DNA of 54,126 nucleotides from an uncultured Lachnospiraceae bacterium (GTDB lineage: Bacteria; Bacillota; Clostridia; Lachnospirales; Lachnospiraceae), in the NCBI GenBank assembly GCA_946615865.1, contig CAMOIJ010000014.1:1-54126 (forward strand), given 5' to 3'. The position numbers and the translations under genes were made by a program. Below, piece by piece: positions 47,105 through 52,140 of this stretch. Every line of letters starts with the position of its first letter. Positions within the stretch are counted from its first letter, which is position 1. The notes under the pieces were generated by a model that was not told the DNA's origin, ran no database searches, and worked only from the letters and a program-made list of their open reading frames with translations.

Positions 47105-47863
47105 TTATGAATCTTTTTCTACTTTCTCAAAGGTAAACGTATTCAGAAACCGCCGGGCCCTCTCCGTGCGGGGATGTTCGAAGAATTCATCCGGGCTTCC
47201 CTCTTCTACGATGTTTCCTTCGTCAATGAAGATCACCCGGTCCGCGACCGCTTTGGCAAAGGACATCTCGTGTGTGACGATCACCATGGTCATTCCCTGC
47301 CTGGCCAGCGTCAGCATGACATCCAGCACTTCTCTGACCATCTCGGGATCCAGTGCCGCCGTTACCTCATCAAACAGCAGAACTTCCGGGTGCATGCACA
47401 GTGCCCGCACGATCGCCACGCGCTGCTTCTGCCCGCCCGAGAGCTGTCTGGGATAGCTGTCTTTTTTGTCGGAAAGGCCAACTCGCTCCAACAGCTGCAG
47501 AGCCTCCGATTCCACTTCTCCCCAGCTGCGCTTCTGCACAAGAAGGGGCGAAAGCATAATGTTCTCCAGGATCGTCTTGTGAGGGAACAGCTCATAATTC
47601 TGAAAAACCATGCCCACTTTCTGCCTGATAGAAGCGATGGAGCGGGCACTCCCGTCCACCTTTTCACCCCTGAAAGTGATCTCTCCGCCCTGAATGGGCT
47701 CCAGTCCGTTGATGCACCGCAGAAGTGTGCTCTTGCCGCATCCGGATGGGCCGACAATGACAACGACTTCCCCTTCCCTTACTTCCAGTGATAGGCCGTT
47801 CAGAACAATGTTGTCGTCAAACTGTTTGGTGATATTCTCTATTTTGACAAGCACCTGCTTCAT
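47105..47863 (-). CDS. Amino-acid ABC importer ATPase
   Basis: A 252-residue GlnQ/TcyC-type ATPase. Walker A is [10 protein letters not shown], the Q-loop [11 protein letters not shown], the signature [16 protein letters not shown], Walker [12 protein letters not shown] and the H-loop [13 protein letters not shown] (Val-Thr instead of Pro-Thr/Pro-Ser) is a small departure seen in some polar amino-acid ATPases. The ATG shares a base with the stop of the preceding permease. It is the last gene of the importer operon. Confidence 0.93.
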
Positions 47864-48537
47864 CAGTTCCACTTCCTTTCCAGATACTTAGAGAACATGC
47901 TGATCGGCCAGCATGCGGCAAAATACAGCACAAAGACACACGCGTACACCCCAAACGCCGCGTTCGGCGAAGATTTGCGGTTTGCCTCGATGATCTGCTG
48001 CCCCACCTTGAGCACCTCCACTACGCCGATCATCATAGCAAGACTCGTGGTCTTGATCATTCGGGTGACCAGATTGATGGAGAGCGGGATCAGGCGCCGG
48101 AGCGTCTGCGGAATGATTATGTGCCGGTAGATCTGCCCCTCTTCCATTCCCAGCGCCGCAGCGCTCTCGTACTGGTGCTTGGGAATACTGATCAGCGCGC
48201 CGCGCACAAGGTCCGCCATCTCCGCTGTTCCCCAGAAGGTGAATACTATGATGGAAGCGATCTCAGCCTCGATGTTCCATCCAAACACCCTTGTTGTCCC
48301 GAAAAAGACGATGAAGAGGAGGACCATCTGCGGCATCACGCGCACGATCTCCAGATAGACGCGGGTGACAGCCTTGATCACCGGATTGTCCCCGGCCATC
48401 AGAACGCCGACGATCAGCCCCAGCACGATGCTGAATGCCACCGCGATCAGACTGATCCGCAGCGAGATCCACAGGCCGCCCAGAAGGCGCTGCATATTGA
48501 TCCCCTTGAAGAGCACGTCAATCCCCAAAGCCTGCAT
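47863..48537 (-). CDS. Amino-acid ABC importer permease 2
   Basis: A 224-residue permease of the HisM/TcyL type. The segment [20 protein letters not shown] opens the first helices and the EAA loop reads [39 protein letters not shown]. The start [10 protein letters not shown] follows GGAGG; the longer frame overlaps the first permease by more. The 20-base overlap with the first permease indicates tight coupling. It forms a heterodimer with permease 1 for a polar or sulfur amino acid. Confidence 0.9.
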
Positions 48538-49186
48538 ACCGAAGCCTCCTTTCCAAGAAACTTCCGAGCGCGGAGACCGGAAGCAGAATGATGAGATAGA
48601 AAACCACAAGAAGCGTCAGGCATTCCAGTGTCTTGTAGTAAAGGCCGATCAGGTCTTTGGCAGTGAACATCAGATCCATCAGGCTGATGGCGGAGAAGAC
48701 GCTGGTCTCCTTGAGCAGGAAGATCACGTTGGCCACAAATGCCGGCACACTGATCGAAACCGCCTGCGGCAGTATGACGTGCAGAACCGCCTGCTGCCTG
48801 GTCATCCCCAGCGACAGCGCGCTCTCCATCTGGATCGGCTCGATCGCCTCAAGGCCGCTCCGGAAAGTCTCCGCCATGTAGGCGCCGCCCAAAAGGGCCA
48901 GTCCCAGAACGCCGCAGGGCTCCGCCGGTATCTCCAGCCCTATCTTCGGCAGGCCAAAATACAGAAAGAACAGCTGCACAAGCAGCGGTGTGTTCCTGAA
49001 CAGTTCGATGTAGATGCCGACGATATTTTGCAGGATCGGGACCCTGAAATGCCGGATCAGCGCACACATAAAGCCCAGCCCGACAGCGGCAAAAATGCCC
49101 GCCCAGCCGATCCGCAGCGTCAGAAACATCGCGTCCCGGTAGAGGGGCAGGTAAGATACTATGACGTCCCAGTGCAGTAGTTCCAT
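48518..49186 (-). CDS. Amino-acid ABC importer permease 1
   Basis: A 222-residue permease of the same family: AMFLTLRIGWAGIFAAVGLG start, IELFRNTPLLVQLFFLYFGL (the conserved FRNTPLLVQ), and the EAA loop YMAETFRSGLEAIEPIQMES. AAGGAG lies 12 bases before this ATG; a closer ATG in another frame gives no protein-like product. It follows the binding-protein gene, separated by a stable hairpin. Confidence 0.9.
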   Translation of the reverse strand: MELLHWDVIVSYLPLYRDAMFLTLRIGWAGIFAAVGLGFMCALIRHFRVPILQNIVGIYIELFRNTPLLVQLFFLYFGLPKIGLEIPAEPCGVLGLALLGGAYMAETFRSGLEAIEPIQMESALSLGMTRQQAVLHVILPQAVSISVPAFVANVIFLLKETSVFSAISLMDLMFTAKDLIGLYYKTLECLTLLVVFYLIILLPVSALGSFLERRLRYAGFGD

Positions 49187-49319: not shown

Positions 49320-50987
49320 TCAGTCCTCAAACGGAATGACCGCACCGTCATATTTATCATTGATAAATTTTTTGATCTCATCGGATTTCAGGACCTTCAC
49401 CAGTGCCTGAATGCCTTCATTGTTCTCGTTTCCTTCCTTGACGGCGACTATGTTGACATAGGTCTTTGCCGCTTCAGAATCGGAGGCCTCATAGGTGATC
49501 GCGTCCCTTCCGGCTGTAAGTCCCGCTTCCAGCGCGTAGTTGCCGTTGAGAACTACTGCCGCGACTTCCTGGCGGACTCTGGAGACCTGTGCGGCTTCCA
49601 GTTCCACGATGTCGAGATTGAGCGGATTGGATTCGATATCCAGAACCGTTGCGGTGAGCCCGGCGCCTTCTTTAAGTTTGATCACCCCGTTGTCCTGCAG
49701 AAGAAGCAGCGCTCTGGCTTCGTTTGTCGTATCATTGGGGATCGCGATCGCGTCTCCCTCCTGAAGCTCCTCCAGGGAAGCTCTGGTTCCGGCGTAGATT
49801 CCGAAAGGCTCGTAATGGATGCCTCCCGCGTTGACAAGGTGTGTCTTGTTCTCTTCATTAAAACTCTCCAGATAAGGAATATGCTGGAAATAATTCGCGT
49901 CCAGATCTCCGCTCTCAACTACAAGGTTGGGCTGCACATAATCTTCAAATACGACAACCTCCAGCTTCCATCCTTCCGCCGCCAATATTTTGCCCGCTTC
50001 TTCAAGGATCTCCGCATGAGGAATGGGAGAAGCCGCCACTTTGATCGTACCTTTTTCCTCTGTCTGCGCGGGCGCTGCCGCCTGGCCGCCGCCCTCAATG
50101 ACAAGGGTGTCCTCAAATTCAATGCCGTATGTATCTACAAGTGTGGCCTCATAGTCCGCGTGGAAGAACTTCTCTTCCCCGAGCTTAACGATCTCTTCAT
50201 TGAGCCAGTTCAGAAGGCTCTCATTTCCCTTGGTCACCGCCGGAGCAATTGTGTCAGCGCTGCCCAGTGAATCAATTCCTACCGTGTATCCTTCGTTCTC
50301 TGCCGCAAACGCGATGACTTCGGTGTTGTCATTGGCCCACGCGACGCCTGTTCCATTCTCGAAAGCGCTCTTTGCAGCCGCATAGGTGTCAAACTTCTGC
50401 AGCTTGATCTCCGGGTTGTTCTTGGTCAGATAAGTCTCCGCCGTCGTTCCGGAAATGACAATGACCTGATCGTCTGCGCCCACCTGCGAGAGATCCGTGA
50501 TCACTCTGTCGTTGTGGGAGACAACGCCCAGCGCCACATTCATGTAAGGCAGCGCGAAATCAACTTCTTCCGCTCTCTCGGGCGTCACTGTGAAGTTCGC
50601 CAGAATGATATCGACCTTTCCTGTCTGCAGATATTCGATTCTGCTGGCAGCCTCGGTCGAGACATATTCAAGTTCCACGCCCAGATCCTGCGCGATCCTG
50701 TTGCCAAAATATACATCATATCCCTGATATTCGCCGTTCTCATCCACATAGCCGAAGGGGCTCTTGTCGGAGAACACGCCGATCGTGACCTTTCCACTCG
50801 CCTGGATCTCTTCCAGAGTTCTGTATCCCGCGCTTTCATTTTCCGCGGTTTCTGTCTCCTGCGCCTGAGGCTCATCCGCGCCCTGCGCCGTCTGGGCTGA
50901 TCCGGAGCCGCATCCTGCCAGCAGAGATCCTGTAAGGATCAGTCCTAATACTGCCGCGCCTGCTTTCTTAATCCAATTCTTTCTCAT
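49320..50987 (-). CDS. Fused binding lipoprotein: SBP_bac_3 plus NlpA/MetQ
   Basis: A 555-residue lipoprotein (lipobox LLAGC, C26). Residues 60-300 are an SBP_bac_3 amino-acid receptor (GKVTIGVFSDKSPFGYVDEN, DIILANFTVTPERAEEVDFA, VISGTTAETYL). After the linker GGGQAAAPAQTEEKG, residues 313-555 are an NlpA/MetQ methionine-type receptor (VAASPIPHAEILEEAGKILA, DLDANYFQHIPYLESFN, IAIPNDTTNEARALLLLQDN). The second half has no signal peptide of its own, so this is a true fusion: two receptors feeding one permease pair. The downstream permeases belong to the first receptor's family. Together with the Met/Cys leader peptide upstream this points to uptake of methionine and/or cystine. Confidence 0.9.
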   Translation of the reverse strand: MRKNWIKKAGAAVLGLILTGSLLAGCGSGSAQTAQGADEPQAQETETAENESAGYRTLEEIQASGKVTIGVFSDKSPFGYVDENGEYQGYDVYFGNRIAQDLGVELEYVSTEAASRIEYLQTGKVDIILANFTVTPERAEEVDFALPYMNVALGVVSHNDRVITDLSQVGADDQVIVISGTTAETYLTKNNPEIKLQKFDTYAAAKSAFENGTGVAWANDNTEVIAFAAENEGYTVGIDSLGSADTIAPAVTKGNESLLNWLNEEIVKLGEEKFFHADYEATLVDTYGIEFEDTLVIEGGGQAAAPAQTEEKGTIKVAASPIPHAEILEEAGKILAAEGWKLEVVVFEDYVQPNLVVESGDLDANYFQHIPYLESFNEENKTHLVNAGGIHYEPFGIYAGTRASLEELQEGDAIAIPNDTTNEARALLLLQDNGVIKLKEGAGLTATVLDIESNPLNLDIVELEAAQVSRVRQEVAAVVLNGNYALEAGLTAGRDAITYEASDSEAAKTYVNIVAVKEGNENNEGIQALVKVLKSDEIKKFINDKYDGAVIPFED

Positions 50988-51117
50988 AACTTCCTCCTTA
51001 TATATAAATTACCCCAGAGGTTCCTTGTTCTGTTCTTTTCCCTCGGGGTTGGGAGCTGTAGTTTTCTGCCCCGTCTCTTCGCTGCCCGGAGCATCGGGAA
51101 ATCGACCGAATCTGAGC

Positions 51118-51155
51118 AAATGTAAAAGCCCGGAAGCTTTTATAAACTCCCGGGC
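51118..51155 (-). terminator. Attenuator terminator of importer operon
   Basis: On the minus strand GCCCGGGAGTTT pairs with AAGCTTCCGGGC in a stem of about 12 bp with a 4-base loop, followed by TTTTACATTT. It lies 130 bases before the binding-protein start and after a leader peptide, so it would end transcription early unless its 5' arm is taken up by another partner. Confidence 0.82.
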
Positions 51156-51269
51156 GTCTGGCGAATCGTTTCTCTCTTGATTCAATGTACTTCGATCCTT
51201 TATCAGGCGTACTGATCAACTAAATGAAAGCATGTCAATGCGCCTGGCCATATTATAAGCCCGGGAGTT
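51145..51269 (-). promoter_or_regulatory. Antiterminator pairing of the attenuator
   Basis: AACTCCCGGGC (51259-51269, within leader codons 17-21) is exactly complementary over 11 bases to GCCCGGGAGTT (51145-51155), the 5' arm of the terminator. If a ribosome stalls on the Met/Cys codons just upstream, this segment is free to pair and blocks the terminator; if it moves on, it covers the segment and the terminator forms. The geometry matches a classical amino-acid attenuator. Confidence 0.75.
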
Positions 51270-51320
51270 CAGCATTCGCATACACATCATGCAGTTGTTT
51301 GCCCTTCCGGTACTGAACAT
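51216..51320 (-). CDS. Met/Cys-rich leader peptide (34 aa)
   Basis: A short frame MFSTGRANNCMMCMRMLNSR, then AYNMARRIDMLSFS and TGA. It has seven Met and two Cys in 34 residues; residues 10-16 read CMMCMRM. AAAGGAG lies six bases before ATG, as good as at real genes. It sits between a consensus promoter and the attenuator stem. The product probably has no function of its own; translation of its Met/Cys codons reports the charging of tRNA-Met and tRNA-Cys. This frame was chosen rather than a longer one because the longer one begins upstream of the predicted transcript start. Confidence 0.78.
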   Translation of the reverse strand: MFSTGRANNCMMCMRMLNSRAYNMARRIDMLSFS

Positions 51321-51329
51321 GGCTTTCTC

Positions 51330-51385
51330 CTTTCGCAGTGTCCTGAATCCTTTCGGATCAGGCTTCTTCGTCCCTATGGGACTGC
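51330..51385 (-). ncRNA. Structured 5' leader hairpins
   Basis: Two hairpins precede the leader peptide: GTCCC-ATA-GGGAC, and CCTGATCC-GAAA-GGATTCAGG with a GNRA tetraloop and one bulged base. They could protect the 5' end or tune leader-peptide translation. I do not recognise a SAM riboswitch or T-box in them. Confidence 0.45.
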
Positions 51386-51403
51386 TCAGATGATCTGATT
51401 TGG

Positions 51404-51432
51404 ATAGTAGCACCATTTACATAGTATGTCAA
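51404..51432 (-). promoter_or_regulatory. sigma-A promoter of importer operon
   Basis: On the minus strand a perfect TTGACA is followed after 17 bp by TACTAT. Transcription would start near 51397, giving a leader of about 410 bases that contains the hairpins, the leader peptide and the attenuator. Confidence 0.85.
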
Positions 51433-51477
51433 TAGGTTGATTAAGAACTTTTTTTGCCGTGCATATCTGTTTTACTT

Positions 51478-51559: not shown

Positions 51560-51823
51560 ATGGCTACAATAAATCCGGTATCAGATCTCCGTAATTATAA
51601 TACAGTATTGGAAAAGGTCTCTTATGGATCGCCCGTTTATCTTACTGTAAACGGAAGAGGCAAATACACAATCCGCGATATTGCCGAAGATGATGAATTT
51701 GAGAAGACAAAGGCGATGCTGCGTCTTATGTGCGAACTAAATGAAGGCAGACGTTCCGGGGAAGAAGAAGGATATATCTCATCTGAGGATGTACGGGCAT
51801 ATTTCCGCGGCAAGCGTTCATGA
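51560..51823 (+). CDS. Phd/YefM-type antitoxin
   Basis: An 87-residue protein: IKPVSDLRNYN-type start (INPVSDLRNYNTVLEKVSYG), SPVYLTVNGRGKYTIRDIAE as the second strand, then a helical acidic C-terminus that would wrap the toxin. It binds DNA by its N-domain and neutralises the downstream toxin. GGGAGG precedes ATG. The stop overlaps the toxin start by four bases. Confidence 0.88.
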   Translation: MATINPVSDLRNYNTVLEKVSYGSPVYLTVNGRGKYTIRDIAEDDEFEKTKAMLRLMCELNEGRRSGEEEGYISSEDVRAYFRGKRS

Positions 51824-52140
51824 AATACTCTGTTGAGTATTCCAAGGCTGCGGTCCGTGACCTTGACAGAGTTTGGTCAGAAGTGTTCAGGGCATCTCGA
51901 AGTTATGATATCACCGAAAGATATTTGAATGACTTGATGGATATAGTCGAGTCAAAATCAGAATATCCCCTGTCCGGTGCCCCGCTTTATTACGAGGACC
52001 GTTTTACAGGATATTACTATGTTGTTTTTAAAGAGTATCTTGCCTTTTATCGTCTGGAAAGCAAACGAATTCTTGTCGACAGAGTCTTGTTCGGAAGAAG
52101 CGACTATATACGGATTCTGCAGTTAGGCACAGATCAATAA
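51820..52140 (+). CDS. RelE/ParE-type toxin
   Basis: A 106-residue protein with the RelE/ParE fold pattern: YSVEYSKAAVRDLDRVWSEV, SKSEYPLSGAPLYY, and GYYYVVFKEYLAFYRLESKR with a final strand VLFGRSDYIRIL. It acts in the cytoplasm on ribosome-bound mRNA (RelE-like) or gyrase (ParE-like); the sequence does not settle which. Translationally coupled to the antitoxin. A good terminator follows 4 bases after the stop. Confidence 0.88.
   Translation: MKYSVEYSKAAVRDLDRVWSEVFRASRSYDITERYLNDLMDIVESKSEYPLSGAPLYYEDRFTGYYYVVFKEYLAFYRLESKRILVDRVLFGRSDYIRILQLGTDQ

Follow-up and report, generated by a model that had tools for sequence, protein, structure and literature searches.

The DNA stretch analysed here (the window; 54,126 nt of contig CAMOIJ010000014.1, from an uncultured Lachnospiraceae bacterium) carries on its minus strand a four-gene importer operon, and between the promoter and the first gene of this operon lies a leader with a short reading frame and an intrinsic terminator (Table 1). 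A preliminary description had read this leader as a leader-peptide attenuator, and on checking the minus-strand letters we found its promoter, its ribosome site, its 34-codon frame and the motif CMMCMRM (codons 10 to 16) all in place. Equally visible in the letters is the 11-nt in-frame segment said to be exactly complementary to the terminator 5' arm: AACTCCCGGGC (51269-51259) is the exact reverse complement of GCCCGGGAGTT (51155-51145). The U-tailed terminator is present too, with a 12-bp hairpin (51155-51128, -19.5 kcal/mol) and a tail, TTTTACATTTG, that is a weak T-run. The two small hairpins described before the ribosome site are kept in close relatives only, the 5' leaders of other members being shorter and different by eye. 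The first gene of the operon, described as a receptor with a MetQ-like domain, has both an SBP_bac_3 and an NlpA/MetQ domain. Divergent from the leader, at 51560-52140, we observed a small plus-strand gene pair with the look of a toxin-antitoxin module (Phd/YefM- and RelE/ParE-like by eye).

Table 1. Features of the leader, the operon behind it and the Rrf2-family gene; coordinates are those of the window unless a contig is named.
Feature	Coordinates	Strand	Remark
Operator-like site CCTATTGACATACTATGTAAATG	51414..51436	-	overlaps -35 box; family consensus CCTATTGACATAGTAGGTnAATnG, partly palindromic by eye
Promoter TTGACA-17-TACTAT	51404..51432	-	TTGACA 51432-51427, 17-nt spacer, TACTAT 51409-51404
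5' strand ATCTGAGC	51384..51391	-	complementary to 51110-51117
Ribosome-binding site AAAGGAG	51327..51333	-	
Leader ORF MFSTGRANNCMMCMRMLNSRAYNMARRIDMLSFS	51216..51320	-	34 codons and stop; ATG at 51320, TGA 51218-51216
Control codons TGC ATG ATG TGT	51282..51293	-	Cys10 to Cys13
CGAATG	51273..51278	-	5' strand of proposed sequestering hairpin in most members; weak in window
Segment 2, antiterminator 5' arm AACTCCCGGGC	51259..51269	-	inside leader ORF
ATGGC	51247..51251	-	lengthens antiterminator; partner GCCA 51159-51162
Segment 2' CAGGCG	51241..51246	-	
Segment 2'' CGCCTG	51204..51209	-	pairs with 2'; starts 9 nt after first base of stop codon
GCCA	51159..51162	-	partner of ATGGC
Segment 3 GCCCGGGAGTT	51145..51155	-	antiterminator 3' arm and terminator 5' arm
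Intrinsic terminator	51117..51155	-	hairpin 51128-51155 and T-rich tail
3' strand GCTCAGAT	51110..51117	-	just past terminator; complementary to 51384-51391
Controlled gene 1	49320..50987	-	lipoprotein with SBP_bac_3 and NlpA/MetQ domains
Controlled gene 2	48518..49186	-	ABC permease, polar amino-acid type
Controlled gene 3	47863..48609	-	ABC permease
Controlled gene 4	47105..47872	-	ABC ATPase; best NCBIfam match TcyN (L-cystine), below cut-off
Rrf2-family gene	G000:C1:36788-37180 (L252 1498-1896)	-	

Is this leader peculiar to the window? A DNA search of 99 genomes returned long matches in the same genus and a second copy in the window's own genome, which precedes a gene scoring above the cut-off of the O-acetylhomoserine sulfhydrylase family TIGR01326. 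A pattern that fixes only CGAATG, CTCCCGGGC and GCCCGGGAG at set spacing, and does not ask for Cys, matched at least 118 stretches in named genomes (L027-L144), and the labels among the 80 matches listed include Lachnospiraceae, Ruminococcaceae, Oscillospiraceae, Saccharofermentans and Christensenella. Pattern stretches and DNA-search loci together make at least 140 loci, of which at least 129 are distinct; weak DNA-search matches, namely L010, which lies in a long ORF, and L015-L017, do not count among the members. With the 104 matches of a covariance model, which partly overlap the 129 pattern loci and share the peptide in 12 cases, they form a large leader family, and frame, Cys codons, both arms and terminator are all retained in the window's relatives. 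Searched against the window's genome, the model hit two places, at E 7e-31 and E 5e-19; another three matches, none better than E 0.013, were left uncounted. It was positive in 48/397 genomes drawn from the family, 25/392 from the order, 13/391 from the class and 5/398 from the phylum, four draws that overlap and each include the window's own genome; the positives of the phylum draw include two families outside class Clostridia. Spread by phages was considered and rejected, with 0 exact pattern matches in viral contigs. The frames of the 129 pattern-found leaders start with ATG (124), GTG (4) or TTG (1), and a ribosome-site match of at least 4 nt precedes the start in 126 of them, although the script chose the start partly for that match. 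The 34-aa frame of the window itself had no NCBIfam or Pfam match, and membership of a known leader-peptide family was rejected.

The genes behind these leaders belong largely to sulphur metabolism. For 193 of 216 distinct leaders, the first downstream gene encodes a Cys/Met enzyme or a predicted importer like that of the window, namely a MetY-like protein (108), a MetQ and/or SBP3 receptor (54), an importer permease or ATPase (13), a cystathionine gamma-synthase/lyase-like protein (11), MetN (4), CysK (2) or a glutamate-cysteine ligase-like protein (1). The remainder comprises M20 peptidases (5), GST-like proteins (2), a LysR protein (1), unassigned genes (8) and leaders with no gene (7). These classes derive from BLAST against reference proteins named from recall and were then checked by profile search; 7 of the 129 pattern-found leaders lack a downstream ORF, and that of L097 is masked and unusable. 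The preliminary description had taken the leader to control an importer, and an importer operon does lie downstream in the window, but the leader is not special to importers, since the regulon is led by O-acetylhomoserine sulfhydrylase genes. The leader also stands before one gene class at L225 and L238; the L238 member carries a C-terminal GST domain, a hint that thiol chemistry may be controlled in the same way.

Across the family the codon that is fixed in position is Cys, and Met is variable. In the 129 pattern-found leaders, Cys accounts for 248/644 residues at positions -5 to -1 before the conserved Arg, compared with 12/1084 in the N-terminal part; after the switch it is also fairly common (209/2220). 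The last 8 codons before CGA hold 255 Cys codons in frame, against 20 and 131 in the other two frames. As the preliminary description had expected of homologous leaders, an in-frame Cys codon lies upstream of the pairing segment, within 8 codons before CGA, in 129/129 pattern-found leaders, and the start of the nearest one is 14 nt from segment 2 in 100, 17 nt in 28 and 20 nt in 1. The core peptide is M-C-C-R-M, with Cys at -1 in 100/129 and at -2 in 98/129, and TGT is swapped for TGC at these two positions in 6 and 15 cases, respectively. Of the 216 peptides, 208 could be placed on an Arg-Met anchor; L220, scored as lacking Cys owing to its misplacement there, holds CC, and one leader of the 216, L237, has no Cys in the frame chosen by the script. 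A ribosome covers about 12-13 nt beyond the first A-site base. Given this footprint and the observed spacing, a ribosome waiting at the Cys codon would leave segment 2 just free. The leader peptide also often ends in Cys before the stop, with TGT as last codon in 44/129 (e.g. L020), and this might serve to check Cys once more where the frame ends.

The combined Met/Cys signal of the preliminary description is corrected in that Cys is the position-fixed codon and Met the variable one. We also considered that the window's leader may sense methionine instead of cysteine, or both equally. CMMCMRM contains four Met and only two Cys, the controlled receptor has a MetQ domain, and Met-rich leaders precede three of four metN genes elsewhere. 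On the other hand, a Cys codon lies 14 or 17 nt from segment 2 in 128/129 leaders, no internal Met occurs upstream of CGA in 15/129 (the ATG after CGA is imposed by the pattern), and, by geometry, a ribosome at Met16 would cover part of segment 2. On this balance we regard methionine sensing, alone or on an equal footing, as rather unlikely. The nearest Cys codon of the window is 17 nt from CTCCCGGGC, with Met between, and as the window belongs to a sub-lineage with CMMCMRM, a contribution of Met is possible there.

The alternative pairings of the leader were examined in a MAFFT alignment (A1; 90 of 91 picked sequences, L070 being left out), in which CGAATG and both arms are invariant because the pattern imposed them. 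The helices of the ON state are paired in 88.4% of its cells and in at most 51.9% when slid. For the ATGGC:GCCAT extension together with the 2':2'' hairpin, we counted 47 cells with two-sided changes, compared with 21.6 in column shuffles, and 0/500 shuffles reached 47; a control slid by -1 gave 57, more than the structure itself, though with far fewer paired cells. In 90 model hits the count rose to 123, compared with 29.6 in shuffles and at most 48 when slid, and segments 2 and 3 were paired in 98.6% of cells, in an alignment built to fit the structure. On A1, RNAalifold run without guidance gave the segment 2:3 helix and one flanking pair but no inner helices. Within the segment 2:3 helix, 26/104 model hits show a two-sided change, mostly from G-C to A-U at two places; this count, in an alignment fitted to the model, is pinned to the helix columns and replaces one of the string anywhere in the row (19 usable rows). 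A terminator was found in 124/127 leaders. The homologues passed the refutation test set in the preliminary description, which asked for leaders lacking the Met/Cys run or the complementary arms. The competing 2:2' hairpin, TCCCGG:CCGGGG plus CGAATG:CGTTCG, has 83.4% of its cells paired, one side being fixed by the pattern, and 77.6% in model hits, with few two-sided changes (10 compared with 6.3). That the letters of the arms change so little may be because segment 2 must fit both 2' and 3, and segment 3 must also fit segment 4.

Folding calculations gave the right direction of change but, at equilibrium, no clean switch. The antiterminator is the minimum-energy fold of the window RNA 51281-51128, which at -50.5 kcal/mol folds better than 200/200 dinucleotide shuffles (z -3.3). 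When the 129 leaders were folded up to the end of segment 3, the probability of segment 2:3 pairing was 0.96 without a ribosome, 0.99 with a ribosome at Cys and 0.93 with a ribosome at the stop; with the terminator included these values became 0.78, 0.91 and 0.63. The window's leader behaves best: with the terminator included, segment 2:3 pairing was 0.97 with the mask at Cys, 0.55 at the stop and 0.99 unmasked, and the terminator reached 0.03, 0.44 and 0.01 in the same order. Expected 2':2'' pairs amounted to 7.9 with a ribosome at Cys, 2.1 at the stop and 3.3 unmasked, a rise from stop to Cys that is partly built in, as 2'' lies under the stop mask. Segment 2:2' pairing ahead of the synthesis of segment 3 shifted only a little (0.41 at Cys, 0.53 at the stop, 0.51 unmasked). 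A tuned overlap of the ribosome at the stop codon with 2'' was rejected, as it occurs in 101/129 leaders and not above the 96.0 (sd 3.7) of shuffled stops; in the window the stop is 60 nt from segment 3, with a family median of 29. A full equilibrium switch was thus not obtained, segment 2:3 being favoured in every state and also without a ribosome, which would mean that termination has to depend on timing and the bulk of the ribosome.

Taken together, these data make the reading of the window's element as a leader-peptide attenuator well supported, and four of six defining attenuator features were found (an ORF with a ribosome site, Cys codons, a terminator and a covarying antiterminator). 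We assign a probability of about 0.88 to a ribosome-mediated transcription attenuator that senses charged tRNA-Cys and, in some members and possibly in the window, also tRNA-Met. Stalling, read-through, their timing and the step at the stop codon we infer as follows. When charged tRNA-Cys is scarce, the ribosome would stall with the Cys codon in the A site and its front edge just short of segment 2, which could then pair with segment 3 ahead of the synthesis of segment 4, the intervening 2':2'' hairpin favouring this; the terminator would be blocked and the importer operon transcribed. When cysteine is plentiful, the ribosome would reach the stop codon and sit over or near 2'', between segments 2 and 3, so that segment 2 could fold on 2' and segment 3 with segment 4, and transcription would stop. 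Through such stalling the leader probably lets the cell read its cysteine supply before sulphur amino-acid genes are transcribed.

The conserved core M-C-C-R-M-x-x-S-R-A could also suggest a nascent-chain arrest peptide, which would stall the ribosome together with a small effector. However, S-R-A and Arg-Met follow from the pairing bases CTCCCGGGC and CGAATG that the pattern imposed, and the Arg is missing in some model-found leaders (L194, L228, L251). The N-terminal part moreover varies in sequence and length, the number of Cys varies and TGC replaces TGT in places, and we consider such an arrest peptide very improbable. Slightly less probable still is a metabolite riboswitch or a T-box-like RNA with an incidental ORF. 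The strong conservation of the primary sequence, itself partly pattern-imposed, would fit such an RNA, but the Cys codons lie outside the proposed helices and are nevertheless kept in one frame, a ribosome site precedes the start, and no Rfam family matched the leader at gathering score, so that riboswitch or T-box identity was rejected; with E up to 5, only two Rfam matches appeared there, far below threshold and on the other strand. No T-box or SAM covariance model matched at the window leader. The window's genome gave two T-box matches (E 2e-17 and 5e-15, both below the gathering score) and no SAM riboswitch match at E 0.001. A Cys/Met-rich peptide that binds metal and regulates a metal gene is hardly credible, for although CMMC may resemble a metal ligand set and a copper-linked uORF has been reported (PMC9426467), no metal transporter or resistance gene occurs among the gene classes found (8/216 unassigned).

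Beyond the proposed attenuator, a conserved promoter site suggests a second layer of control that the preliminary description had not included. The sequence AACCTATTGACATAGTAGGTnAATnG over the -35 box is common to the upstream regions, as a consensus of the 120/125 leaders with a promoter score of at least 9, a few of which lack the operator-like site. An 18-nt operator core was found within 4 mismatches in 76/98 model hits with enough upstream DNA and in 0/98 shuffled controls. In the window's genome, which is 88% complete, CCTATTGACATNNTAKG occurs exactly only at the two leaders, and the sole Rrf2 match at E 1e-5 in this genome is divergent to the metY leader. A second operator-like sequence was seen by eye between the Rrf2 gene and the metY leader. 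The protein scores over the cut-off of the Rrf2 superfamily and below both curated cut-offs for IscR and CymR, and it matches solved IscR and CymR chains. The conserved, partly palindromic site is perhaps an Rrf2/CymR-type operator, and an Rrf2-type protein may repress the leader promoters. CymR and IscR, both of the Rrf2 family, control cysteine and Fe-S genes (PMC3828012), and in both cases sulphur promoters bear a conserved site and an Rrf2-family gene is present; unlike there, the candidate site in the Clostridial leaders is combined with a downstream attenuator.

Could the same switch serve different amino acids? Of the two cysK leaders one could be placed, and the 8 codons ahead of its Arg include 4 for Cys and 1 for Met. 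Three metN leaders, related to each other, carry on average 1 Cys and 4 Met there and a fourth carries 3 Cys and 2 Met, all small numbers. We tentatively raise the possibility, to which we give somewhat less credence than to its negation, of a codon-programmable Clostridia sulphur regulon, in which a near-invariant switch, CGAATG-n5-CTCCCGGGC ... GCCCGGGAG, is reused, mostly behind an Rrf2-type operator, and the codons ahead of it set the signal. Such a regulon would be Cys-rich before cysK, Met-rich before three of four metN and mixed before the window's Cys/Met importer, and, if true, both initiation and elongation would be tied to sulphur status.

Ribosome attenuation is a known kind of control, and attenuators of the trp/his/leu type occur in Proteobacteria. 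The Clostridial leader resembles them in its control-codon leader peptide and its alternative antiterminator and terminator; unlike in theirs, its reading frame contains, behind the control codons, both the antiterminator arm and the proposed competing hairpin, and its stop lies well past the arm (CGA to stop, family median 78 nt). Amino-acid genes of Firmicutes are known chiefly for T-box and S-box control. Similar in logic is the uORFC-8-2 motif upstream of cysS in Rhodobacterales, with a terminator, Cys-tRNA logic and a leader peptide whose tandem Cys codons usually occupy positions 14 and 15, but in another phylum, before another gene and with a first stem that contains the Cys codons (PMC8632094). 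Leader peptides with runs of Cys codons also precede cysteine genes in Mycobacterium, Propionibacterium and Bifidobacterium, where, in contrast, the runs lie near the stop codon and no conserved terminator hairpin was found (PMC1262725). In bacilli, two hisS paralogs are preceded by histidine leader peptides, an example of amino-acid leader-peptide attenuation in Firmicutes with a different amino acid, genes and class (PMC2965389). In Clostridium perfringens, cysteine genes are under Cys T-box and S-box control, where premature termination at sulphur genes is likewise set by cysteine or SAM supply but sensed without translation; where no Cys T-box precedes cysK, clostridia may rely on some other mechanism (PMC2940859). 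A Cys leader family that is widespread and linked, in Clostridia of rumen and gut, with sulphide-assimilating enzymes of the MetY type and importers of the Cys/Met type gives this question an answer that can be tested, and it also supplies a covariance model for annotation. In the open-licence literature we found no description of a Clostridial Cys leader-peptide attenuator, which indicates its absence only weakly; the words 'cysteine' and 'homoserine' are absent from the main text of two motif surveys (PMC11109978, PMC8040213).

One further pairing spans the whole leader. Close to the transcript start, the strand ATCTGAGC has its complement, GCTCAGAT, directly behind the terminator, so that this helix could form only after read-through. 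A similar pairing, partly with changed bases, was observed in 20 of the 30 best-scoring of 116 leaders.
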